Source: Janibacter anophelis NBRC 107843 (lineage in GTDB: Bacteria; Actinomycetota; Actinomycetes; Actinomycetales; Dermatophilaceae). From it: a DNA stretch of 60,441 nucleotides. The notes beneath the pieces are model-generated. The model ran no database searches. It was not told the origin of the DNA and worked only from the letters and a program-made list of their open reading frames with translations. Positions 1,125 to 58,044 of this stretch are shown piece after piece; position 1 is the first letter of the stretch, and each line of letters starts with the position of its first letter. The stretch is from the NCBI RefSeq assembly GCF_001570945.1, contig NZ_BCSQ01000013.1, forward strand, positions 1 to 60,441. The letters run 5' to 3'. A program made the translations under genes and the position numbers.

Positions 1125-1523
1125 ATGACCATGACCGACCCGATTGCGGACATGCTGACCCGCGTCCGGAACGCCAACTCGGCGCACCACGACGAGGTCT
1201 CCATGCCGTACTCCAAGCTCAAGTCGCACATCGCGGAGATCCTCCAGGCGGAGGGTTTCATCGCGGGGTGGGAGGTCGAGGAGGCGACCGTCGGCAAGAC
1301 GCTGACGATCAACCTCAAGTACGGCCCCAACCGTGAGCGCTCCATCGCGGGCGTGCGCCGGGTGTCCAAGCCCGGTCTGCGCGTGTACGCGAAGTCCACC
1401 AACCTGCCGAAGGTTCTCGGCGGCCTGGGCGTGGCGATCATCTCCACGTCCTCCGGCCTCCTGACCGATAAGCAGGCCGCAACCAAGGGTGTGGGTGGGG
1501 AAGTCCTCGCCTACGTCTGGTAA
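1125..1523 (+). CDS. rpsH: 30S ribosomal protein S8
   Basis: A 132-aa protein with the S8 hallmarks: [15 protein letters not shown] at the N-terminus, [13 protein letters not shown], and the closing [12 protein letters not shown] followed by [10 protein letters not shown]8 binds 16S rRNA helix 21 and in other bacteria also regulates the spc operon. Two ATGs occur six bases apart (1125 and 1131); the first is chosen, the second would remove two residues. The relatively long spacer before it may hold an internal promoter, but no convincing one is visible. Confidence 0.97.
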
Positions 1524-1535
1524 GGGGAAGCAGAC

Positions 1536-2072
1536 ATGTCGCGAATCGGACGACTCCCGGTCGCCATCCCCAGCGGTGTCGACATCGCCATCGAGGGCCA
1601 GACCGTCAAGGTCAAGGGCCCCAAGGGCGAGCTGCAGGTCATCGTGACCGAGCCGATCACGGTCTCCCAGACCGAGAACGGCGTCGAGGTCGCGCGTCCC
1701 GACGACGAGCGCGAGTCGCGCTCGCTCCACGGCCTGACCCGCAGCCTCATCAACAACATGGTCATCGGTGTCACCGAGGGCTACGAGAAGAAGCTCGAGA
1801 TCCACGGCACGGGTTACCGCGTGCAGAACAAGGGCGGTTCGCTCGAGTTCGCGCTCGGCTACAGCCACCCGATCGTCATCGAGGCCCCCGAGGGGATCAG
1901 CTTCAACGTCGAGAACCCGACCCGCTTCAGCGTCCAGGGCATCGACAAGCAGCTCGTCGGCGAGACCGCTGCCAACATCCGCAAGCTCCGCCGCCCCGAC
2001 CCGTACAAGGGCAAGGGTGTCCGGTACGAGGGCGAGCACATCCGTCGCAAGGTCGGAAAGGCTGGTAAGTAA
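1536..2072 (+). CDS. rplF: 50S ribosomal protein L6
   Basis: A 178-aa protein beginning [15 protein letters not shown], the usual L6 opening, with the two repeated L6 folds and the C-terminal signature [17 protein letters not shown]6 lies near the GTPase-associated region of the large subunit. It follows rpsH by 12 bases and precedes rplR by 3 bases, so it is within a tight operon. Length and sequence are ordinary for the family. Confidence 0.97.
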
Positions 2073-2075
2073 GCC

Positions 2076-2450
2076 ATGGCCAAGATCATCAAGCGCGCCA
2101 AGGGCAAGACCGCCGCTCGTGGCCGTCGCCACGTGCGCCTTCGCAAGAAGGTCTCCGGTACCGCTGCACGGCCGCGTCTGGTCGTCACCCGCAGCAGCCG
2201 CCACGTCTTCGTCCAGGTCGTCGACGACACGGTCGGCAAGACCGTCGCGTCCGCGTCGACCATGGAGGCCGACGTGCGTGCCCTCGAGGCCGACAAGACC
2301 GAGCGGGCCAAGAAGGTCGGCGAGCTCGTCGCCGAGCGCGCCAAGGCGAATGGAGTCGTCTCCGTGGTTTTTGATCGCGGTGGCAACCGCTACCACGGCC
2401 GCGTCGCCGCCATCGCGGACGGCGCCCGCGAAGGGGGCCTGACCCTGTGA
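2076..2450 (+). CDS. rplR: 50S ribosomal protein L18
   Basis: A 124-aa protein with a basic N-terminus ([18 protein letters not shown]), then [20 protein letters not shown] and the closing [20 protein letters not shown], the L18 signature. L18 binds 5S rRNA together with L5, which is encoded upstream in the same operon. The start ATG lies three bases after the rplF stop. Confidence 0.97.
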
Positions 2451-2484
2451 TGCAGGCCCACAACGTCGAGAAGAGGAACATCTG

Positions 2485-3150
2485 ATGCCCGGACCCCAGC
2501 GTCGAGGCGCCGGTGCCGCCGGCACCAATGAGCGCTCCAACAACGACCGTCGTGACAACCGCGGCGGTGGCCGTGACCGTCGTGACGGTGGCCGCGACCG
2601 CACCGAGAGCCAGTTCCTCGAGCGCGTCGTGACCATCAACCGTGTCGCCAAGGTCGTCAAGGGTGGTCGTCGCTTCAGCTTCACCGCCCTGGTCGTCGTC
2701 GGTGACGGTGACGGCACCGTCGGTGTCGGCTACGGCAAGGCCAAGGAGGTCCCGGCCGCGATCGCCAAGGGTGTCGAGGAGGCGAAGAAGAACTTCTTCA
2801 CCGTCCCGCGCATCCAGGGCACGATCCCGCACCCCATCCAGGGTGAGGCCGCGGCCGGTGTCGTCATGCTCCGTCCGGCCTCCCCGGGTACCGGTGTCAT
2901 CGCCGGTGGTCCGGTGCGCGCCGTGCTCGAGTGCGCCGGCATCCACGACGTGCTGTCCAAGAGCCTCGGCTCGGACAACGCGATCAACATCGTCCACGCG
3001 GCGGTCGCGGCCCTCAAGGGTCTCGAGCGCCCGGAGGCCGTCGCGGCCCGCCGCGGTCTGCCCCTGGACGAGGTCGCCCCTGCAGCCATGCTGCGTGCCC
3101 AGGCCGCTGGTCGCGCCGAGGCCGCCGAGAAGGCGAAGGCGGGTGCATGA
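2485..3150 (+). CDS. rpsE: 30S ribosomal protein S5
   Basis: A 221-aa S5, longer than the E. coli protein (167 aa) because of a Gly/Arg/Asp-rich N-terminus of about 45 residues ([16 protein letters not shown]) and a short Ala/Lys-rich tail. The core shows [20 protein letters not shown], the S5 double-stranded RNA-binding fold, and the C-terminal [11 protein letters not shown] block. S5 helps keep decoding accurate. Its stop codon overlaps the ATG of rpmD, a sign of coupled translation. Confidence 0.97.
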
Positions 3151-3332
3151 TGGCTCGTCTCAAGGTGACCCAGACCCGTTCCGAGATCGGTGGCAAGCAG
3201 AACCAGCGCGACACGCTGCGCAGCCTCGGTCTGAAGCGCATCGGCGACGTCGTCGTCAAGGAGGACCGCCCGGAGATCCGTGGCATGGTCCAGACGGTTC
3301 GCCACCTGGTGACCGTCGAGGAGGTTGACTGA
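3147..3332 (+). CDS. rpmD: 50S ribosomal protein L30
   Basis: A 61-aa protein starting [20 protein letters not shown]. The first ATG (3147) overlaps the rpsE stop as ATGA; the next codon is also ATG (3150) and would give the 60-aa form more usual in the family, so either may be used. The L30 motif [20 protein letters not shown] is intact. It precedes rplO by two bases. Confidence 0.95.
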
Positions 3333-3334
3333 TC

Positions 3335-3820
3335 ATGGCTGACTCCAAGGCCACCCCCAACGAGGAGCAGGGTTCGACCCACGCCCTCAAGGTGCACCAC
3401 CTGCGTCCGGCCCCCGGCGCCAAGACCGCGAAGACCCGTGTCGGTCGCGGTGAGGGCTCCAAGGGCAAGACCGCGGGCCGCGGTACCAAGGGCACCAAGG
3501 CTCGCTACCAGGTTCCGGAGCGCTTCGAGGGCGGTCAGACGCCGCTGCACATGCGTCTGCCCAAGCTCCGTGGCTTCAAGAACCCGTTCAAGACCGAGTA
3601 CCAGGTCGTGAACCTCGACCGCATCGCCTCCCTCTTCCCCGAGGGCGGCACCGTGGGTGTCGAGGAGCTCGTGGCGAAGGGCGCCGTCCGCGACGGCCAC
3701 CCCGTCAAGGTGCTCGGCTCCGGCGAGATCACGGTGAAGGTCGACCTCACAGTCGACGCCTTCTCCGCGAGCGCCAAGGACAAGATCGAGGCGGCCGGCG
3801 GCAGCATCACCGCTCGCTGA
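3335..3820 (+). CDS. rplO: 50S ribosomal protein L15
   Basis: A 161-aa protein with [20 protein letters not shown] near residue 35, the glycine-rich L15 signature, and a compact C-terminal domain. L15 is a late assembly protein of the large subunit. The N-terminus ([14 protein letters not shown]) is a short extension before the conserved [13 protein letters not shown]. It closes this transcriptional block: a long perfect hairpin follows, and secY starts about 200 bases further on. Confidence 0.97.
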
Positions 3821-3836
3821 CCCCCTTCGGTCACTG

Positions 3837-3872
3837 CGTCGAGGCCGCCCCGTGATCGGGGCGGCCTCGACG
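3837..3872 (+). terminator. Strong hairpin after rplO
   Basis: A perfect 15-bp inverted repeat (3837-3851 pairing with 3858-3872) closes a 6-base loop. There is no T-tract, as is common in high-GC actinobacteria. It probably ends or attenuates transcription from the ribosomal operon before secY. Confidence 0.75.
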
Positions 3873-4023
3873 CGTCTGTGGCCACGTCGTCCCACGACGG
3901 GACGCGAGTCACGTCGCGATCGCCTGCTCGCGACAGGTATCGTCGGTCAGGTTGTGCCGCCACCCGGCGGCTCCCTGCCCGCAGCTCACATCTGCATCCC
4001 GGCACCGTCCTGGAGGAACCCAC

Positions 4024-5346
4024 GTGCTCTCCGTCTTCACCCGGGCGTTCAAGACGCCCGACCTGCGGCGCAAGCTGCTCTTCACGCTGGGCATCGTCGT
4101 GCTCTTCCGCCTCGGCTCCCACGTGCCGACGCCCAACGTCGACTACTCGGCCGTGCAGGCCTGCATCGCGGGCGCCCGCCAGGACGGCGGCAACAACTTC
4201 CTCGGGATGGCCAACCTCTTCAGTGGTGGCGCGCTCCTGCAGCTGTCGATCTTCGCGCTCGGCATCATGCCGTACATCACCGCGAGCATCATCGTGCAGC
4301 TGCTCACCGTCGTCATCCCCCGCTTCGAGGCGCTGAAGAAGGAGGGGCAGACCGGTCAGGCCAAGATGACGCAGTACACGCGGTACCTGACGATCGCGCT
4401 GGCGGTCCTCCAGTCGGCCACCTTCATCACCTTCGCGCGCAACCCCGCGGCGCTGTTCAACAACGCCGAGTGCGGCCCGATCCTCTACCGCGAGTCGATG
4501 TTCGACATCGTCCTGATGGTGCTGACGATGACGGCCGGCACCGGCCTGATCATGTGGCTCGGTGAGCTCATCACCGACAAGGGCGTCGGCAACGGCATGT
4601 CCCTGCTGATCTTCACCTCGATCACCGCGACCTTCCCCGGCTCGCTCTGGGCCATCCAGCAGCGCGACGGACGCTGGGACCTCTTCCTGCTCGTCATCGC
4701 GATCGGCTTCCTCATCATCGCGGCCGTCGTCTTCGTCGAGCAGTCCCAGCGCCGCATCCCCGTGCAGTACGCCAAGCGGATGGTCGGTCGCCAGATGTAC
4801 GGCGGGACGTCCACGTACATCCCGATCAAGGTCAACATGGCCAACGTGATCCCGATCATCTTCGCCAGCTCGATGCTCGCGCTGCCGCAGATGATCGCCC
4901 AGTTCCAGACCGACCCGACGGGCAACAACCCGGGCTGGGTGGACTGGATCAACACCTACCTCGTGCGGGGTGACCACCCCATCTACATGGCGGTCTTCAC
5001 CGCGATGATCCTCTTCTTCACCTTCTTCTACGTGTCGATCACCTTCAACCCCACGGAGGTCGCGGACAACATGAAGAAGTACGGGGGATTCATCCCAGGT
5101 ATCCGAGCCGGGCGACCCACGGCCGAGTACCTCCAGTACGTGCTCACCCGCATCACCGTGCCGGGAGCCATCTACCTCGCTCTGATCTCGCTGATCCCGC
5201 TCGTCGCATTCGTGTGGATCGGCGCCAACCAGGACTTCCCCTTCGGCGGGGCGTCTATCCTCATCATGGTGGGCGTCGGTCTGGAGACGGTGAAGCAGAT
5301 CGAGTCCCAGCTCCAGCAACGCCACTACGAAGGATTCCTCCGCTGA
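4024..5346 (+). CDS. secY: Preprotein translocase subunit SecY
   Basis: A 440-aa integral membrane protein with the ten hydrophobic segments expected for SecY, the channel-forming subunit of the Sec translocon. Conserved stretches include [13 protein letters not shown] near the first segment, the [13 protein letters not shown] loop, and [20 protein letters not shown] before the last segments. The GTG start at 4024 is preceded by a good Shine-Dalgarno (GGAGG about 8 bases upstream) and gives the normal family length; a longer in-frame reading from 3952 lacks conservation. The stop overlaps adk by one base. Confidence 0.96.
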
Positions 5347-5909
5347 TGCGTCTCATCATCCTGGGCCCCCCCGGGGCCGGCAAGGGCACCCAGGCCACCC
5401 GGATCGCCGAGCACTACGGCATCCCGGCCATCTCCACGGGTGACATCTTCCGTGCCAACATCAAGAACGAGACCGAGCTCGGGCTCCAGGTCAAGGAGAT
5501 CCTCGCCTCCGGTGGTTACGTCTCCGACGACATCACCAACGCGATCGTCGAGGCCCGTCTCGCCGAGGGCGACGCCGCGCCCGGGTTCCTCCTCGACGGC
5601 TACCCGCGCACGACCGCGCAGGTGACCGCGCTCGACGCGATGCTCGCCAAGACCGACCACTCGATCGACAAGGTGCTCGAGCTCGTCGTCGACGACGAGG
5701 TCGTCGTGCAGCGCCTGCTCAAGCGCGCCGAGCTCGAGGGTCGCGTCGACGACACCGAGGAGGTCATCCGCGAGCGGATGGCCATCTACCACCGCGAGAC
5801 CAAGCCGCTGTCCGACGCTTACGAGCAGCGCGGTCTGCTCGTCAAGGTCGACGGCGAGGGCGAGGTCGACGAGGTCGCCGAGCGGATCGTCGCCGCCCTG
5901 GGCGCCTGA
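5346..5909 (+). CDS. adk: Adenylate kinase
   Basis: A 187-aa enzyme catalysing ATP + AMP = 2 ADP in the cytoplasm. The P-loop [10 protein letters not shown] lies at residues 7-16, the AMP-binding region reads ISTGDIFR, and FLLDGYPRT is the characteristic segment near residue 80. It is the short form lacking the zinc-binding LID insert, normal for actinobacteria. The ATG overlaps the secY TGA by one base (TGATG), so it is translationally coupled to secY, and map follows four bases later. Confidence 0.97.
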
Positions 5910-5913
5910 GCTC

Positions 5914-6762
5914 TTGGGACTCTTCGGTCGCGAGCGGGTCCGCCCGCGCACCCCGGATCAGCTCCGGGCGATGCGCGTGGCGGGCCTGCTCGTCGGCCGC
6001 ACCCTCGAGATGCTGCGCTGTGAGGTCCGCGCCGGCGTCACCACCGCCCAGCTCGACGCCCTCGCGGAGGACTTCATCCGCAGCGGCGGGGGAGTGCCCA
6101 ACTTCCAGCTCGTCCCCGGCTACAGCCACACCCTGTGCACCTCCGTCGGCGAGGAGATCGTCCACGGCATCCCCGGTGACCGGGTCCTGCGTGACGGCGA
6201 CCTGCTGAGCATCGACTGCGGTGCCGAGGTCGACGGGTGGAACGGCGATGCCGCCATGACCGTCGTCGTCGGCGGCGACGCCGCCGGCGAGCCTGCCGCC
6301 GTGCGGCTGTCGGAGATCACCCGCCGCTCGCTCTGGGCGGGGATCGCCGCCCTTCGTCCCGACGGGGACCTCAACGACATCGGCGGCGCGGTCGAGGACT
6401 CGATCCGAGCTGACGCCCGCACCGACGGCGTCGCTTACGGCATCGTCGAGGACTACACGGGCCACGGCATCGGCGAGCACATGCACCTGCCGCCCAACGT
6501 GCCCAACTACCGCGTCCGGGGTCGCGTGCCGCAGACGCCGGTCGGCACGACGCTGGCCATCGAGCCGATGGTCACCCTTGGCGACCAGGCCAACCACGTG
6601 CTCGACGACGACTGGACCGTCGTCACCAACGACGGCAGCCCCGCGGCCCACTGGGAGCACTCCGTCGCGATCACCGAGCACGGCGTCTGGGTCCTCACGG
6701 CCATCGACGGCGGGGAGGCGGAGCTGTCCGCCCGCGGCGCCAGCTTCGGCCCGCTGGACTGA
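5914..6762 (+). CDS. map: Methionine aminopeptidase, type I
   Basis: A 282-aa metallopeptidase removing the initiator methionine. The five metal ligands can be placed: the two Asp in SIDCGAEVDGWNGDAA, His in GHGIGEHMHLPP, Glu in LAIEPMVTLG and Glu in HWEHSVAIT; the substrate-binding His lies in EEIVHGIP. The start is TTG at 5914, giving MGLFGRERVRPRTPDQLRAM, which fits the family opening. The segment GIGEHMHLPPNVPNY departs slightly from the commoner GTEMHQ form. It closes the secY-adk-map set. Confidence 0.96.
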   Translation: MGLFGRERVRPRTPDQLRAMRVAGLLVGRTLEMLRCEVRAGVTTAQLDALAEDFIRSGGGVPNFQLVPGYSHTLCTSVGEEIVHGIPGDRVLRDGDLLSIDCGAEVDGWNGDAAMTVVVGGDAAGEPAAVRLSEITRRSLWAGIAALRPDGDLNDIGGAVEDSIRADARTDGVAYGIVEDYTGHGIGEHMHLPPNVPNYRVRGRVPQTPVGTTLAIEPMVTLGDQANHVLDDDWTVVTNDGSPAAHWEHSVAITEHGVWVLTAIDGGEAELSARGASFGPLD

Positions 6763-7010: not shown

Positions 7011-8860
7011 ATGACCCTTCCCCCTGCACAGGACGAGACGATGGGACTGGCCGCCGGCTTCGACCGGACGAGTCCCGACGAGTGGGCCCAGCTGGCCGCC
7101 GCGGTCGTCAACAAGTCCCGGCCCGAGGACCGCAAGGTCGACGCCGACGGCGCCCGTGAGGTGCTGACGAGCCACCTGCCTGGCGGCATCGACATCGACC
7201 CGATCTACTGGCCGCAGCCGGGCACCGCGCTCGGTCTGCCGGGCGCCATGCCGTTCACCCGGGGCCGCGGGCCGCGCAACCCCGACGTGCCGTGGGACGT
7301 GCGCCAGCTCCACGACGACCCCGACGCGGCCACGAGCCGCAAGGCCGTGCTCGCCGACCTCGAGCGCGGCGTCACCTCGGTCTGGCTGCACGTCGGCGCG
7401 GACGGCATCGCCGCCGGCGACGTCGCCGAGGTCCTCACCGACGTCCGGGCCGACCTCGCTCCCGTCGTCGTCAGCTCCCTCGACGACCAGGGCGCCGCCG
7501 CGGCCGCGCTCGTCGCCGCCTGGGAGGCGAAGGGGGTCGACCCCACCACCGTCAGCGGCAGCCTCGGCCACGACCCGATCGGTCAGGTCGCCGTCCGCGG
7601 TGGCACCCCCGACCTCGGACCGCTTGCCGACGCCGTCGCCACCTGCCGCGACCGGTTCACCGGCGTGCGGGCCATCACCGTCGACGCGCGGGTGCACCAC
7701 GACGCCGGGGCGAGCGACCAGGACGAGATCGCCCTGGCCCTGGCCACCGCCCTGGACTACGTGCGGCACCTGTCCGAGGCGGGCATCGAGCCGGCCGAGA
7801 CCTTCCGCCGGATCGACTTCCGCGTCGCCGCCACCGCCGACCAGTTCACGACGATCGCCAAGCTGCGCGCCCTGCGCCGCACCTGGGCCCGCGTGGGCGA
7901 GGTCCTCGAGGTCCCCGAGGCCGACCGCGGCGCGTGGATCCACGCCGTGACCTCGTGGCGCATGCAGACCCGCACCGACCCGTGGGTCAACCTGCTGCGC
8001 GACACGATCGCCTGCTTCGCTGCGGCCGCCGGTGGCGCCGACGCGATCACCGTGCTGCCCTACGACCACGCGCTCGGGCTGCCGACCGCCTTCTCCCGCA
8101 GGGTCGCCCGCAACACGCAGTCGCTGCTGTCCTCCGAGTCCAATGTCGCGCGCGTCGCCGACCCGGCGGGTGGATCCGCCTACGTCGAGACGCTCACCGA
8201 CGAGCTGGCCCGGGCCGCGTGGGCCTGGTTCGGCGAGCTCGACGCCGCCGGTGGCGCCGCCGCCGGCCTGGCCTCCGGTGCCGTCGCCGAGCGCCTCGCC
8301 GCCACGCGCGCCGAGCGCGACGCGGCGCTGGCCACCCGCGCCCTGCCCCTGACCGGCACGTCGACCTTCCCCCTGGCGGGAGAGACCCTGCTCGAGCGCA
8401 CCGCGCGCGTCGAGCTGCCCGGAGAGGGACTGCCGCGGCGTCGCGACGGTGAGGTCTTCGAGGCGCTGCGCGCGCGCACCGCCGCCGGCGACGTCTCCGT
8501 CCCGGTCCTCGCCCTCGGCCCCGCCCGCGAGCACACCGCCCGCCTGACCTTCGTCAGCAACCTCCTCGGCGTCGCCGGCATCCGGCCCGACGTCGTCGAG
8601 GTCGCCTCCGCCGACGACGTGCCCGCCACGACCGGCTCGGTCGCCGTCATCGCGTCCTCGAAGCAGGGCTACGCCGACCTCGCCGAGGCGAGCGTGTCCT
8701 CCCTTCGTGCTGCTGGTGCGGAGCGCGTCCTCGTCGCCGGCTCGGCCAAGGAGGTCGGCGACACGGCGGTCGACGGCGAGATCCGCGACGGCATGGACGT
8801 CGTCGCCTTCCTCACGGACCTCCTCGACACCCTCGGCGCCCCGCAGGCAGGAGCACAGGC

Positions 8861-52680: not shown

Positions 52681-53766
52681 GTGGCACTCTCCATCGGAAT
52701 CGTCGGGCTCCCCAACGTCGGCAAGTCGACGATGTTCAACGCCCTGACCAAGAACAACGTCCTCGCCGCGAACTATCCCTTCGCGACCATCGAGCCGAAT
52801 GTCGGCGTCGTCCCGCTGCCGGACGCGCGACTGCAGCGGCTCGCCGAGATCTTCGGGAGCGAGAAGATCCTGCCCGCGACGGTCTCCTTCGTCGACATCG
52901 CCGGCATCGTCCGCGGTGCGAGCGAAGGGGAGGGGCTGGGCAACAAGTTCCTCGCCAACATCCGCGAGTCCGACGCGATCTGCCAGGTGGTGCGTGCCTT
53001 CGTCGACGACGACGTGACGCACGTCGACGGCAAGATCGACCCCGCCTCCGACATGGAGACGATCAACACCGAGCTCGTCCTGGCCGACCTGCAGACGCTC
53101 GAGACCGCCATCCCGCGGATCGAGAAGGAGGTCAAGGGCAAGAAGACCGACAAGGACGTCCTCGACACCGCCCTCGCCGCGCGCTCCGTCCTCGAGGCCG
53201 GCGACACGCTCTTCGCGAAGGGGGGCGCCGCCGGTGTCGACATGGAGATCGCCCGTCAGCTCGGGCTGCTGACGACCAAGCCCTTCCTCTACGTCTTCAA
53301 CGTCGACGAGGACCAGCTGACCGACACCGACTTCCAGGAGCGGATGCAGGCGCTCGTCGAGCCGGCCGAGGCGATCTTCCTCAACGCCAAGCTCGAGTCC
53401 GAGGTCGCCGAGCTCGACGACGAGGACGCCCGGGAGCTCCTCGAGGGCGTCGGCATCGACGAGCCGGGCCTGGACCAGCTGGCGCGCAAGGGATTCAACA
53501 CCCTCGGCCTGCAGACCTACCTGACCGCCGGCCCCAAGGAGTCGCGCGCGTGGACGATCCACCGCGGCGACACCGCGCCCAAGGCGGCGGGCGTCATCCA
53601 CACCGACTTCGAGCGCGGCTTCATCAAGGCCGAGGTCGTCTCCTTCGAGGACCTGGACACGCTCGGCTCGATGGCCGAGGCGAAGGCCGCCGGCAAGGTG
53701 CGCATGGAGGGCAAGGACTACGTCATGGCTGATGGTGACGTGGTGGAGTTCCGGTTCAACGTGTGA
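52681..53766 (+). CDS. ychF: Redox-regulated ATPase YchF (Obg-like)
   Basis: A 361-aa P-loop protein of the Obg family that prefers ATP. GLPNVGKSTMFNALTKNNVL is the P-loop (near residue 8), SFVDIAGIVRGASEGEGLGN the switch region, and the C-terminal TGS domain contains GLQTYLTAGPKESRAW and GVIHTDFERGFIKAEVVSFE. YchF binds ribosomes and is linked to stress responses. GTG 52681 matches the family start. The C-terminus ADGDVVEFRFNV is intact, and its last 25 bases are repeated twice downstream. Confidence 0.96.
   Translation: MALSIGIVGLPNVGKSTMFNALTKNNVLAANYPFATIEPNVGVVPLPDARLQRLAEIFGSEKILPATVSFVDIAGIVRGASEGEGLGNKFLANIRESDAICQVVRAFVDDDVTHVDGKIDPASDMETINTELVLADLQTLETAIPRIEKEVKGKKTDKDVLDTALAARSVLEAGDTLFAKGGAAGVDMEIARQLGLLTTKPFLYVFNVDEDQLTDTDFQERMQALVEPAEAIFLNAKLESEVAELDDEDARELLEGVGIDEPGLDQLARKGFNTLGLQTYLTAGPKESRAWTIHRGDTAPKAAGVIHTDFERGFIKAEVVSFEDLDTLGSMAEAKAAGKVRMEGKDYVMADGDVVEFRFNV
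53742..53766 (+). repeat. ychF 3'-end repeat, copy 1 (possible attachment site)
   Basis: The last 25 bases of ychF, beginning GGTGGAGTTCCGGTTCAACG and ending in TGA. Copies 2 and 3 lie at 56886 and 57428. Copies 1 and 3 agree for the first 23 bases; copies 2 and 3 end in TAG. Confidence 0.75.
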
Positions 53767-53767
53767 T

Positions 53768-53830
53768 CTGCAGAGTCTGTGCGCGTCGCCCCGGTCGTCG
53801 ATGACGGCCGGGGCGACGCTGTCTCTGCAG
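53768..53830 (+). terminator. Terminator hairpin after ychF
   Basis: A 12-bp perfect stem (53783-53794 with 53808-53819) extended inward by CGTC/GACG. Outside it CTGCAGAG at 53768-53775 is mirrored by 53823-53830, giving a two-part inverted repeat one base after the ychF stop. Confidence 0.75.
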
Positions 53831-53862
53831 TCGTGCCGCCGAGCGGCCGCAGGTGATGGTGA

Positions 53863-54495
53863 TCAGAGGCCGAGCATGTGTGCGACGGCCGAGGCCGGCG
53901 AGGTGAGCACCGGCACCGCCAGGTCGGTGAGCAGCGGCTCGGCGTCCGCCATGCTCGCCTGCGCGAGGACGATGACGTCCGTGCGGCAGGCCAGTGCCCG
54001 TGCCGTCGCGGCGATCTCGACGAGGTACCCGTCATGGTCGCCGCGTTCGAAGCTGTCCCACGCTCTGTCCGCGATGACGATCGATTCCTCGATTCGGCGG
54101 TGTGCAGTCGTCGCCGCGTCGTGCAGCAGAGCGCGGGTCGGCGCAATGGTCGATTCGAGCGCTACGACGACTCCGATTCTCGGGCCGAGCTCGATTGCGC
54201 GAACGGCCATGGGGCGATCGACGCGGAAGACGGGAACATCGAACGCCGCCCGCTCTGCGACGTCGCCGATCGTCGAGCACGTGCAGCAGATGATCTCTGC
54301 GCCTTCGTCACGCAGAGCTGCGAGGTGTTCCTCGACGCGAGTTCGGACGGCTCGTGGCCCCTGTGCGCGGGCATCACGGAGGAGCGCTTCTTCGACGATG
54401 TGTCGTGGGTCGGCGTCCGCGTCTCCGAGGGTGACGAGGCGGTCGAACACGGGGACATGCACGGGCGACGTGTGCAGGAATCCGAGACGGTGCAT
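53863..54495 (-). CDS. Asp/Glu-racemase-like protein
   Basis: A 210-aa protein with the aspartate/glutamate racemase fold: AEIICCTCSTIGDVAE carries the first active-site Cys region, followed by VPVFRVDRPMAVRAI and RIGVVVALESTIAPTRALLH. Where the second catalytic Cys would be it reads VLAQASMADA, so racemase activity in the classical two-base sense is doubtful. It lies just beyond the ychF terminator, facing ychF, inside the region bounded by the ychF-end repeats. GC content looks lower than in ychF but higher than in the KAP gene. Confidence 0.75.
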   Translation of the reverse strand: MHRLGFLHTSPVHVPVFDRLVTLGDADADPRHIVEEALLRDARAQGPRAVRTRVEEHLAALRDEGAEIICCTCSTIGDVAERAAFDVPVFRVDRPMAVRAIELGPRIGVVVALESTIAPTRALLHDAATTAHRRIEESIVIADRAWDSFERGDHDGYLVEIAATARALACRTDVIVLAQASMADAEPLLTDLAVPVLTSPASAVAHMLGL

Positions 54496-54736
54496 GATCC
54501 GTATCGTGTCAGAGGAGGAGCGTTTCGATCTGTCAGCAGAGCTGTTCTCGGCCGAGCAGCCCGCCAGGGGAAGTGCGATACGTGCGGCCGGATGTTGAGT
54601 GGATGCGTGATGTCTCTTCGTGCCTGAACGCGGTGGAATTTAGGCTAATGTCTAACTATCGCCCAACCTGACTTCTGTTTCGATAGCTTGGGCTAACAGT
54701 CAGAGAAAGACTGATTCCATCGGTGTGTGGTGTTGT
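54496..54736. other. AT-rich gap between the KAP gene and the racemase-like gene
   Basis: The 241 bases contain no convincing gene. A markedly AT-rich stretch around 54640-54710 (TTTAGGCTAATGTCTAACTA) is the likely promoter area for the racemase-like gene. CTATCG and CGATAG, and GCCCAA and TTGGGC, form short inverted pairs there that could be operator sites. Confidence 0.4.
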
Positions 54737-56814
54737 CTAGAAGCTCTCCGGCCGCCAGCCCGATAGGTATTTGTCAGCGAGTTGAAGAATATTGTCGTCA
54801 CCCAGGTTCTTGCGCACATTCCTCACGACCTCTTCGACTGCAACTTCAGATTCGAATAGCCCGACGAGAAGCTCCCAGGCGAGACGATCTTCAGATCTGA
54901 CCTGTCGAGAGCCCATCGATTGTGATCGTGCAGTGGACTTAAGTGAGTGCAGTATCGCTCGCAGCAGAACAGGATCGTCACTCGACGTCAGAGGTGCTTC
55001 GCCTGTTGCTGTATGGACGGCATCGTAGATGCGCCAGGCGTCCCACTCGCGCCACGGCTCGGTTGGAGGGATTCGCTGGAGTCGTGCAACAAACTCCGCA
55101 TGGATCCGCGCTGCGAACGCTTCACTGACGAGTTTGTGCCCCGCGCCTTCGCGATAGCCCACGCTGTGGATGAAATTGAGCTGGGATGAGTACGTTTCGA
55201 TGCCGTCGAGGATTTGTGAGACTATGGCTTCTCGCTCTGCCTCATCCGCCACGCGGCGGAGGAGTCGAAGGACAACGCGGCCAACGGAGATCTCGCGGCG
55301 TCCGATGTCGAAGAAGCCTCGCTCCTTCTTTTCGGGAATGGCGTCGATGAGGTTCAAAAGAGTGATTGATCCCGGGATGACCATCTCGGTCGTGAATTTT
55401 GCTTCGTATGAGGTGAGCCCTTCGAGGACGGTTTCGAGCTGCTCAGGGTCCAACGCGGCCAGGTATCCCTTGAGCGCTACCCCGTCGTTGAGAAACTTAA
55501 AGGCCTGCTCGGAGCTTCGGAACGCGACGAGTTCGTCTGGCGCAACCCGATCGAAATAGAGGTTGAGAAAGTCGATGTGAGCCATCCGATGTGCGGTTCG
55601 CCAGACGCTCAGCCAGTCAGACCCATAGTGATTGTTCTCGATGTATTGCAGCGCAGCCGGGAATACATGATTAAAGAGCGCCCGAATCACGTCGTCGTCA
55701 TCGGGGAACTTAGCGAGCAGTGCAGTAATGGTCTTCTGGGCTCGTTCGTCCTTGCGTCCCATGACCTCGCGTGCGCTCGTGAGCTCATTTCGAAGCTTCG
55801 ATAGCTGTTGGACGAGTTCAGGGCGGAAGACGCGAAGTGCCTCCATTGCGAGAAGATCGACCAGATCGACTTCATCGCCGAGACTCTTAATCGTCGACCT
55901 GGCGGAGATCGCGTAGCGCGTGACATCGCGCATGTTCGAGAACAGGGGATCGATCACTTCCCAGTAGATGTCAATCCATCGGCTGTTATCGAGGGTGGCG
56001 TTCGCGACGGGGGTGAGGATGCGATCTAGTTCTTCGACAACCTGGGACCGCAGCAGCTTCTCCAGCGCATGCGGAACATCGAAGCTCAACTGGACAATTT
56101 TCTCGAGGTACGCCCGCCCGGGGATTCCGTCTTCGGTGAGGGCCTGCTCCACGCGTTCTCTATCAAAGGCCAACACGTAAATTATATTTGGGAAGCTCGC
56201 CGTCAGGCGGACGAGTTTGAAGATCTCGCGGATCTCGAGAGTGGTGAGACGGTCGATGTCGTCGATGACGACCACGATAGGTCGCGCGAGTGAGACGAGC
56301 TCCTTCGTGATCTCCTCCCGCACCTTCTTCGCGCTGTGCTCTGCGTCCGTTGTTGCAGCAAGTCCGCCGAGTGCAGCTACGGCGACTTCGCCTACGGCCG
56401 CTGCGCCCGGAAGCGGAACGAGCTGAGACACAGGTTTGAGGATGTTGGCGTACTGAGCGAGCCAGTCCGCAGTCTTCCCGAAGCGACTCTTGCTGTGAAC
56501 GTTGAGCTCCGCTGCGATCTCAGTGAAGAAGAAGTTGACGAGCTGGTTCGAGCCGGAGAACATCCAAGGGTTGAAGTCGACGACAGTAAGCGCGGGCGCG
56601 GCCGCAAACTTTTCACGCATCAGGTTGATGAATGAGCGCTTTCCGTGCCCCCAAGGCCCCAATATGCCCACGACGAGTCCCTGGCTGGCGTTGAGTTCCC
56701 GGATCGACTCCGCGAAGTCGTGCGCGACCGGTGCACGCCCGAGGTTATCTTCGCCGGAGGAGGTGATCGGCGCGTCGATCGAGGTCTCTCTTGGGGGCGA
56801 TCGACGCTGTTCAT
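54737..56814 (-). CDS. KAP-family P-loop NTPase, apparently frameshifted near its start
   Basis: A large NTPase, continuous for 644 codons from 56671 down to 54737. Its frame is open further upstream and encodes conserved KAP sequence (SIDAPITSSGEDNLGRAPVA), but no ATG, GTG or TTG begins that frame. An ATG at 56814 lies in another frame; one extra base in the run of five G at 56793-56797 would join them as MNSVDRPPRETSIDAP. Walker A reads GPWGHGKRSF, with Arg where Ser/Thr normally binds magnesium; Walker B is IVVVIDDIDRL. KAP NTPases include the F-plasmid phage-exclusion protein PifA. The gene is clearly AT-richer than its surroundings, a sign of transfer. Confidence 0.75.
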
Positions 56815-56885
56815 AGCGATCATCAACCCCTGGCCGCGTGGGCGGTGAAGGCGATGCCAGGTGATGGCTGTCTGTACCGGAGCTC

Positions 56886-56910
56886 GGTGGAGTTCCGCTT
56901 CAACGTGTAG
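56886..56910 (+). repeat. ychF 3'-end repeat, copy 2
   Basis: GGTGGAGTTCCGCTTCAACG and five more bases ending in TAG: one internal mismatch to copy 1 plus the changed stop. It lies just upstream of the KAP gene and still spells VEFRFNV and a stop on the plus strand, with no ychF body before it. Confidence 0.75.
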
Positions 56911-56933
56911 CGGAAGCTCCGGGCAGTTTTCGT

Positions 56934-57377
56934 TCAGGCCACCCGCGGGTAGTCGATCGTCAGCAGACTGTCGTCGCGGATGTCGCGGAGCACGTCCTCG
57001 GTGAGATCTCCCACTCGGACACCTCGAGCGTGGGAGGGCACGACATCGTCGTCCTCAGGGCTCCACGCGCGGAGCACAGCGACGCGCGAGACGTTCGAGA
57101 CGTGGTCCGGCATGTCGCGCAACCACCCGAGCCACACGTCGGCTTCGATCTCACCGTGGACCGGCGCGTCGCTGCGACGCCCGATGAGACTGTCGCAGTC
57201 ACACATCCCGCTGGTCAGAGTGAACACCACGGACGAGCCTCGGACTCGACGCGAGGCTATGCGCATGGTGGTCTGCACGGGCGGCATGCCCAGCCTGTCC
57301 TCAGTGAATCGCTGGAATTCCGAAGTGAAGGCTGCGGCGTTGATCGCCCACAGATTGGTGGCGCACATGCTCTCCAT
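56934..57377 (-). CDS. Unknown 147-aa protein between ychF-end repeats 2 and 3
   Basis: Starts MESMCATNLWAINAAAFTSE (ATG 57377, with GGAAAG just before; ATG 57368 is an alternative) and ends LLTIDYPRVA. A central segment SSVVFTLTSGMCDCDSLIGR holds a CxC pair, and VWLGWLRDMPDHVSNVSRVA looks helical. No signal or membrane segment. I do not recognise the family. It is the only gene in the second interval bounded by the ychF-end repeats. The frame is open further upstream into the neighbouring broken gene, so a more distal start cannot be excluded, but conservation-like composition starts here. Confidence 0.65.
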   Translation of the reverse strand: MESMCATNLWAINAAAFTSEFQRFTEDRLGMPPVQTTMRIASRRVRGSSVVFTLTSGMCDCDSLIGRRSDAPVHGEIEADVWLGWLRDMPDHVSNVSRVAVLRAWSPEDDDVVPSHARGVRVGDLTEDVLRDIRDDSLLTIDYPRVA

Positions 57378-57427
57378 CTTTCCGCGTTCGACCGCCACCG
57401 TGCACACCGCTAACGGTGACGTAACCC

Positions 57428-57452
57428 GGTGGAGTTCCGGTTCAACGTGTAG
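57428..57452 (+). repeat. ychF 3'-end repeat, copy 3
   Basis: Identical to copy 1 for the first 23 bases and ending in TAG. GGTGACGT occurs shortly upstream in both copy 1 and copy 3, with five extra bases in copy 3, hinting that the shared ancestry extends a little beyond the 25 bases. Confidence 0.75.
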
Positions 57453-57502
57453 TTCTGGACCTGGGCGCCCTCGTGCGGGACCTCGTGCTCTGAGGGGGGG
57501 GG

Positions 57503-58044
57503 CTACCGGAGGACTTCGGTAGCGCAGGTGGGTCTCGCTCGCGTAGGCGGAGCTCTCCAGGCGTTCGAGCTCGATGCGCTGCCCCAGGCCCGCGAACAGC
57601 GAGATCCCGTCGCCGAGCAGCACGGGTGCGACGTGGAGGTGGAGCTCGTCGACGAGCCCGAGCCGCAGGCACTGCCGCGAGATGCTCCCGCCGAGCAGAC
57701 TGACCCACCCGTCGCCGGCGGATCGTGCGGCCAGCTCGACCGCTTCGGAGATGTCGTCGACCACGAAGGTGTACGTGGTGCCGTCGCGCTCGATCGGCTC
57801 ATGGGCCTCGTGGGTCATGAGGTAGACCGGCACCTTCAGCATGCCCCCGTAGGGGAGCTCGTCATCCTCGATCGTCTGGAACCGGTTCGCACCTCCGACG
57901 ACGGCGCCAATCCGACCCATGACCCGTTACGACGACGTCGTCCTCGGGAGCAGAGGGCCTGCCGAACATCCAGTCGACGCCGCCGTCCGGGTCTGCCAGG
58001 AACCCGTCGAGGGGGACGGTTGCGTGGACGATTACTGTGGCCAT
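57503..58044 (-). pseudogene. Frameshifted RibD/dihydrofolate-reductase-like gene
   Basis: The N-terminus MATVIVHATVPLDGFLADPD with GGVDWMFGRPSAPEDDVVV is read in one frame from ATG 58044. Near 57920 the family sequence moves to another frame (MGRIGAVVGGANRFQTIEDD, VSLLGGSISRQCLRLGLVDE). At the end, LRYR is followed by an extra A before what would be VLR and the TAG at 57503-57505. Two frameshifts break one gene of the RibD C-terminal/DHFR superfamily. A run of nine G (57494-57502) lies right after it. It may be decay or consensus error; both junctions should be re-read. Confidence 0.75.

Follow-up and report, generated by a model that had tools for sequence, protein, structure and literature searches.

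Here we analyze a 60,441-nucleotide stretch of the Janibacter anophelis NBRC 107843 genome (contig NZ_BCSQ01000013.1; hereafter the window), in which the 3′ end of ychF, the gene for the conserved GTPase YchF, recurs downstream and brackets unrelated genes. Our best explanation, to which we assign a probability of about 0.7, is that the window carries single-gene cassettes that were accreted into an array at the 3′ end of ychF by large serine recombinases specific for this gene. The target, the exact junction, the conserved half-sites, their common polarity, the sharing of whole cassettes and the recombinase clade at the site can all be read from comparisons between genomes.

Searching the whole 3.3-Mb genome with the 25-bp ychF 3′ end and allowing up to three mismatches, we found exactly three copies, all on the + strand and all in the window. 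The reversed pattern, used as a control in the same search, gave no match. Copy 1 is the present end of ychF. The ychF-like part of copy 2 (56886-56910) has one internal change and a TAG stop, and that of copy 3 (57428-57452), the last array site found in the window, is identical over its first 23 bases and also ends in TAG. A previous interpretation made from the letters of the window (the sequence-only reading) had placed the three copies at these positions with these differences, and both the sequence and the genome search agree with it. It had counted two cassettes. However, a site matrix trained on 28 sites of other genomes, outside the window, detects a fourth, decayed copy that it overlooked, copy 1b, at 54635 (GGTGGAATTTAGGCTAATGTCTAAC; 34.8 bits, left or P half 19.0), between the racemase-like and KAP genes. 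Because of this additional copy, the window holds three cassettes with one gene apiece, measuring 890, 2254 and 542 bp from site to site; the racemase-like, KAP and unknown genes are there as described.

We looked for the state before insertion in the relatives. A YchF search over 58 of them gave full-length matches in 54, and the remaining four (G015, G045, G047 and G051) matched only other GTPases. The closest relative by YchF (G004, 97%) lacks the first two window cassettes, its ychF joining directly to the sequence that follows copy 2 in the window (92% over 487 bp). The junction is base-exact, and the G004 ychF end, GGTGGAGTTCCGCTTCAACGTGTAG, is identical to copy 2 and unlike copy 1. Judged from this alignment, the G004 junction is the ancestral state for the first two cassettes. 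The identity with copy 2 is as expected of a site-specific arrival, in which the old ychF end is displaced to copy 2 and a new end comes with the insert. For the same reason, the G and the TGA stop of copy 1 were probably brought by the incoming cassette.

The third cassette is retained in G004, where its right-hand site is decayed, about 515 bp after ychF. The ychF gene of G009 continues into downstream DNA equal to that of G004 from +658 on (92%), so G009 is without the third cassette too; about 110 bp of G004, from the decayed site to the resumed match, are not accounted for. Among the first 20 relatives opened, further downstream copies of the 25-bp end in the same orientation occur in G006, G012 and G011, and the YchF C-terminus is altered in G001, G023 and G028. 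In general, the relatives carry differing inserts at this point, or none was found. A pattern search in 186 genomes of the family gave a match in 141, with YchF positions located in 179 of the 186; the loci fetched from these were picked for their pattern match and, being a non-random choice, support no family-wide frequency. The idea of an integration hotspot, put forward in the sequence-only reading, is thus borne out by the differing inserts, by the G004 junction and by recurring tandem stacks of unrelated cassettes. An empty site of the kind that it proposed to look for exists, base-exact, in G004 for the first two cassettes; the repeats are confined to one locus instead of being scattered in the genome, and the relatives differ in content at this place instead of sharing a fixed set of genes. 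As a separate observation, locus L033 (G006) has an 8.6-kb insert with a 2144-aa open reading frame (ORF), flanked by an 85-bp copy of the ychF end (+8550..8634) and not by a 25-bp copy as in the cassettes.

The extra ychF-end copies have in common a left flank that is not ychF-derived. We aligned 30 cassette end flanks and derived the matrix and a consensus from the 28 outside the window. The consensus is CAGAGGTTGGTATGTGCCGGAACGCGGT joined to GGAGTTCC, that is, a conserved left half-site of ∼26 nt followed by a ychF-like right half of ∼20 nt. These lengths are near the half-lengths of serine-integrase attP and attB sites. In 849,666 bases of 72 loci selected for ychF or sites, with a threshold of 22 bits the matrix found 122 sites on the strand of ychF and none on the opposite strand, a count that takes in the training sites and includes at least one site twice (G143, overlapping loci). 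The median spacing of the sites is 1,183 bp (110 intervals), and the tallest stack, in G474, has nine sites behind ychF within less than 8 kb.

Searched with zero mismatches in 396 genomes of the order, a degenerate 20-base signature of the site turned up in 80, representing 22 of 109 genera, and the reversed signature turned up in none. The figure of 80 is a lower bound; the signature misses the window genome, whose sites are variant. We opened the array loci of 20 of the 80 genomes, and ychF lay upstream of the array in 19, in the same stretch for 14 and in the adjoining stretch for five (in G286 ychF is cut by the stretch end). The one array locus where no ychF was seen upstream, in G506, starts at a contig edge. 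Chance repeats, or a local duplication of the ychF end, have the repeat itself in their favor and nothing further. We regard them as practically excluded: three of three matches lie at one locus with none for the reversed control, the left half is conserved beyond the ychF-derived part, and recurrence across families with a control of zero refutes them.

Some cassettes and sites show further features. Several cassettes (in L090, L091, L094 and L096) start right after the stop with GTTCCGGTTCAACCTCTG or a close variant, which is the left-end motif in inverted form. In others the first bases are CGTTATTGACG, followed in some by a HigA-like frame. L058 (G113) has a cassette-type site away from any array seen, 80 kb upstream of ychF.

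Between the window repeats no integrase-like gene was seen, the genes there being those for the racemase-like protein, the KAP NTPase and a 147-aa protein. The sequence-only reading, seeing no integrase in the window, had invoked a recombinase acting in trans, or lost. The agent can now be refined to, most likely, a ychF-specific large serine recombinase, which was not found in the window genome. The search for integrases next to ychF that it had recommended does reveal a clade of these enzymes there in other genomes. Among 32 genomes (array, altered-end and comparison genomes), PF07508 (E 1e-8) matched in 20, and in G023, G030, G143 and G189 the match lies in the element at ychF. The candidate enzyme has the architecture of large serine recombinases, a resolvase catalytic domain and then a Recombinase domain (PF00239 at 3.3e-32 and PF07508 at 1.4e-21 in G143; both domains also in G310 and G317), and the solved chains matching it include TP901-1 integrase (1.5e-11).

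Using an alignment of these four recombinases (A1), we searched the 396 genomes of the order and obtained matches in 130. Ten, including two query members, score at least 460 bits. Of these, nine (G030, G143, G317, G310, G384, G488, G431, G462 and G278) lie 0.1-15 kb from a ychF with an altered C-terminus on the same contig; in the tenth case, G396, 46 bp separate the start of the match from a displaced VEFRFNV end at a contig edge. None of 12 lower matches (G461 and 11 others) had ychF in the first 19-20 kb; a further 20 kb (both sides for nine, one side for one) also held no ychF, and the other two are on contigs of ∼26-27 kb. The partial lower match of G286 does adjoin ychF. From named genomes, we fetched 80 relatives of the recombinase with a ten-row alignment; 38 have ychF in the stretch, 23 have a VEFRFNV end, own or displaced, and 54 have at least one of the two. 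In a quick tree of 92 rows, one branch of 67 rows (SH-aLRT 100) holds all 54 rows labeled for ychF, and the other 25 rows hold none. The label requires 10 changes on this tree, compared with 29.4 after shuffling, and none of 500 shuffles was as low; 13 of the 67 clade rows are unlabeled. Near-identical ychF-type recombinases were observed in Corynebacterium, Actinotignum, Varibaculum and Arcanobacterium (L174, L176, L177, L178, L180, L181, L183, L184 and L185), where the YchF ends read VEFRFNVT. Going by their identity, these probably represent a recent cross-genus element.

Other sources of the enzyme were considered and put aside. A tyrosine integrase (PF00589, E 1e-6) was found near ychF in none of 10 array genomes. 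Three overlapping ORFs near ychF in G028 (L049, +1237..6349) appeared tyrosine-recombinase-like by eye, one of them motif-flagged; they were set aside, because they apparently lie inside a methyltransferase-like gene and nothing similar occurs among 1844 ORFs of 51 loci. A phage origin was rejected, as the phage relatives of the recombinase are all below 60% identical; within ∼3 kb of the integrase in the four phages opened, there was no ychF-like attP. A plasmid origin was rejected likewise, the best plasmid match reaching 36.8% identity among the matches listed. Viral contigs gave one site-bearing contig, L089, which was examined only for its site.

The elements and the cassettes could be linked through their half-sites. 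In a mirror test, we took the right half from each re-coded ychF junction, reverse-complemented it and scored it with the matrix of cassette left halves, exactly at the mirrored position about a central GT. Only cassette left ends had entered the training of this matrix, and the 99.9% level of the null (99,961 random positions) is 2.1. The 17 re-coded junctions scored 13.3 on average with 16 above 2.1, and 41 FRF-type ychF ends scored −9.9 with one above 2.1; two loci had no scorable core. Together with the half-lengths, this suggests that the cassettes end in attR-type P-B′ sites of the ychF recombinase family.

Canonical serine integrases recombine attP and attB; when a directionality factor is present, they recombine attL and attR. 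In our model, the ychF end would be attB, with GT as the proposed central dinucleotide (GTG[GT]GGAGTTCC), and the last ∼20 bp of ychF are proposed to be its B′ half. An autonomous element with a P-P′ attP would integrate to give attL and attR. The attL would consist of ychF and P′, giving YchF a new C-terminus such as VEFRSGLTSGGKK, and the attR would consist of P and the displaced VEFRFNV end; each stacked cassette would likewise end in P-B′. An element sitting at ychF would thus have several attR choices in a stack. Excision with the nearest attR would release the element alone and leave the cassettes following a ychF end that is intact and could receive another arrival. Excision with a distal attR would let the element carry one or more downstream cassettes to another cell. 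Such a choice would explain why the sites are hybrid and of one polarity, why YchF ends are restored, and how cassettes can be mobile without each encoding a recombinase. The catalysis by this enzyme, the central dinucleotide and the excision in cis with a directionality factor are inferred.

The window array itself is not an autonomous cassette, as no recombinase of this kind was found in its genome; other elements at the same site do encode one. It fits the definition of a cis-mobilizable element in part, as DNA that lacks a recombinase and lies between attachment sites belonging to an autonomous family; the half-site is shared with re-coded elements, some of which carry a recombinase. Cassettes of its type would have been mobilized by a neighboring element. 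The stack is probably immobile now, because no ychF-type recombinase was found in its genome.

Several observations weigh against this explanation. The PF07508 recombinase is at ychF in only four of the 32 genomes, and 12 of the 32, the window genome included, have no PF07508 match anywhere (E 1e-8); for the window genome, a ychF-type serine recombinase was not found at E 1e-8 or at E 1e-20. The left P halves of elements fit the matrix less well than those of cassettes (about 20-28): G023 scores 11.9, G189 7.7, G143 5.1, G083 3.6 and G396 3.0, all above 2.1, and G150 (−2.1) and G030 (−4.4) are not. Five of the seven listed recombinase or re-coded elements thus exceed the null level; the far end of G028 scores 22.5 and may belong to another cassette. 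Cassettes of the VEFRFA/VEFRFS type, with a shifted outer P′ motif, fail the mirror test (12 sites, mean −8.9). Finally, most cassettes have a hybrid P-B′ site and not a full P-P′ attP, and therefore canonical attP × attB recombination cannot insert them singly.

We compared 105 cassettes, each bounded by sites that score over 22 bits and are no more than 8 kb apart; 93 pairs drawn from different genomes have half or more of their shorter member in common. Many of these pairs represent one recurrent cassette of ∼600 bp, apparently a HigA-type module. Others are shared as whole units. A 1,975-bp cassette matches end to end (94%) between G012, where it is second, and the opened part of G155, where it is third; these genomes belong to two genera of the same family. 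G155 also has a 1,133-bp cassette in common with G463 (99%), and G058 has a 1,791-bp cassette in common with G419 (97%), both end to end and both across families. The ratings of G155 (completeness 74%, contamination 4%) call for caution on its two shared cassettes; those of G058 are 100% and 1%.

Whole cassettes at differing array positions, as in these three pairs, would also be expected if single P-B′ circles were inserted one by one at the ychF attB, as in integrons, by the same serine recombinase in a non-canonical attB × attR reaction or by a recombinase encoded elsewhere. The P-B′ ends would regenerate attB with each insertion, the matrix sites are all of one polarity, and a serine recombinase at ychF is lacking in the majority of the array genomes examined. 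However, textbook serine integrases do not recombine attB with attR, and cis-excision with a neighboring element could account for the same pattern. There is also no tyrosine integrase near the arrays of the 10 genomes, nor a recombinase among the 25 commonest Pfam families of the cassette ORFs. We consider integron-like exchange unlikely, though it deserves more weight than the other alternatives.

The array could instead be only a relic: the insertions would be old, homologous recombination through ychF and its flanks would now spread them, and site-specific movement would no longer take place. Site 1b of the window and the second site of G004 are decayed, the KAP gene has no normal start codon, and the recombinase was not found in the window genome. 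Against this stand the 99% identical whole cassette with matching ends in two families and the near-identical recombinases across genera, both of which point to recent site-specific movement elsewhere. As a general account the relic is quite improbable, but it may be true of the window genome in particular. We retain accretion by ychF-specific serine recombinases as the preferred explanation for the arrays.

The features of the window array are given in Table 1. The KAP gene is AT-rich, as already noted from the sequence, with a GC content of 57.4% versus 70.1% for the window. Its frame continues upstream over 56672-56899, apparently the conserved N-terminal part, with no ATG, GTG or TTG start, and its Walker A reads GPWGHGKRS; on both grounds, the gene may be decaying. 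The 147-aa protein of cassette 3 has no match in Pfam (E 0.01) or PADLOC (E 0.001). Behind copy 3 (57494-58044), a RibD_C/dihydrofolate-reductase-like gene is broken across reading frames, and nine consecutive G occupy 57494-57502. Copy 3 itself is traversed by a long ORF (56934-57920).

Table 1. Target gene, attachment-type sites and cassette genes of the ychF array in the window.
Feature	Coordinates	Strand	Description
ychF, target gene	52681..53766	+	PF06071 9.5e-39, the only such match in the genome
Copy 1	53742..53766	+	Present ychF 3′ end, B-B′, attB-like; GGTGGAGTTCCGGTTCAACGTGTGA
Cassette 1 gene, Asp/Glu/hydantoin racemase-like	53863..54495	-	PF01177 1.9e-10
Copy 1b	54607..54656	+	Decayed cassette-end site: P half 54607-54631, GGT, then GGAATTTAGGC...
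Cassette 2 gene, KAP-family P-loop NTPase, PifA-like	54737..56671	-	PF07693 1.4e-44; PADLOC PifA 2.9e-63
Copy 2	56861..56910	+	P half GTGATGGCTGTCTGTACCGGAGCTC, GGT, ychF end with TAG; 39.8 bits, P half 20.3
Cassette 3 gene, 147-aa protein with no Pfam or PADLOC match	56934..57377	-	Homologous cassette directly behind G004 ychF
Copy 3	57403..57452	+	P half, GGT, ychF end with TAG; 27.0 bits, P half 7.4

We also scanned the cargo of the cassettes. A codon model picked 56 ORFs for 103 cassettes, and the longest ORF was added for the rest, giving 122 ORFs, some of which are probably not genes. Counting families among the 25 commonest per library, we found HigA antitoxin in 10, HTH_3 in nine, NTP_transf_2 in five, short-chain dehydrogenases in five, GNAT acetyltransferases in four, HepT-like in three, GmrSD_N in two and SspE in two. 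A few defence-like genes are also present. No recombinase is among the 25 commonest Pfam families, a listing outside which 66 rarer families fall.

Our searches of an open-licence library brought up no paper recognizable as a description of insertion at the ychF 3′ end, and a term search for ychF in the main text of a survey of actinobacterial integrative and conjugative elements gave no occurrence. Within those searches, the suspicion that ychF is not a described target holds for its 3′ end. The one ychF insertion site that they yielded is upstream of the gene: pneumococcal prophages or satellites are reported to insert upstream of ychF in Streptococcus (PMC6375853, PMC8637289, PMC10383233). 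The ychF neighborhood is an integration place in both, with insertion upstream there and at the 3′ end here. Closer in kind are the ssrA islands of Dehalococcoides. These islands are reported to lie in tandem behind a conserved gene with direct repeats of its 3′ end and a conserved motif just upstream of each repeat; 16 of 31 have a CcrB-like serine recombinase module, and the authors consider that the other 15 might be cis-mobilizable (PMC3146451). In contrast to ychF, the gene targeted there encodes an RNA and the islands are those of a single genus, with a size of ∼12 kb for the vcr islands, whereas here a protein gene is used across actinobacteria with a median spacing of ∼1.2 kb, and autonomous elements re-code the YchF C-terminus. 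For the staphylococcal and Enterococcus cassette chromosomes (SCC/ECC), a report describes large serine recombinases inserting beside rlmH, direct repeats with imperfect inverted repeats, and an element remnant present in a recipient strain (PMC6222049). These differ in target and phylum and use a ccrAB pair, where we find one recombinase gene and much smaller units.

As in SCC and the ssrA islands, the window array is inserted at the 3′ end of a conserved gene, whose end is restored or replaced. On our best reading, the ychF arrays would resemble both in principle, the single-gene units and the target being new. Integron cassettes are similar in forming small, often single-gene stacks of one polarity with a conserved end site and toxin-antitoxin or adaptive cargo. 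Unlike them, the ychF arrays of the 10 genomes have no tyrosine integrase nearby, the stack sits on a housekeeping gene, and by eye the sites resemble serine-integrase half-sites and not folded attC. The order of the ychF site, AGAGGTT...AACCTCT, is by eye opposite to that of attC, RYYYAAC...GTTRRRY. Xer/dif and integron attC were set aside on such by-eye grounds only.

If the proposed explanation is true, it would link tiny integron-like cassettes to SCC-type serine-recombinase islands, and it raises the question of why the conserved GTPase YchF tolerates re-coding of its C-terminus by mobile DNA. A broader view, which we hold tentatively and find somewhat doubtful, is that ychF anchors a widespread actinobacterial cassette system, integron-like but run by large serine recombinases. 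It would collect single genes behind this housekeeping gene, a good share of them toxin-antitoxin or defence-like, with exact units moving between families and each insertion restoring or re-coding the last YchF residues. Since the cargo includes HigA-type, nucleotidyltransferase-domain, HepT-like, acetyltransferase and a few defence-like genes, the arrays are a place to seek new defence and toxin-antitoxin systems, and the site motif would allow a scripted listing of such cassettes. The site would also be a candidate integration site for actinobacterial genetics. The ychF 3′ end would then be a fixed, easily found address at which actinobacteria stockpile single accessory genes.

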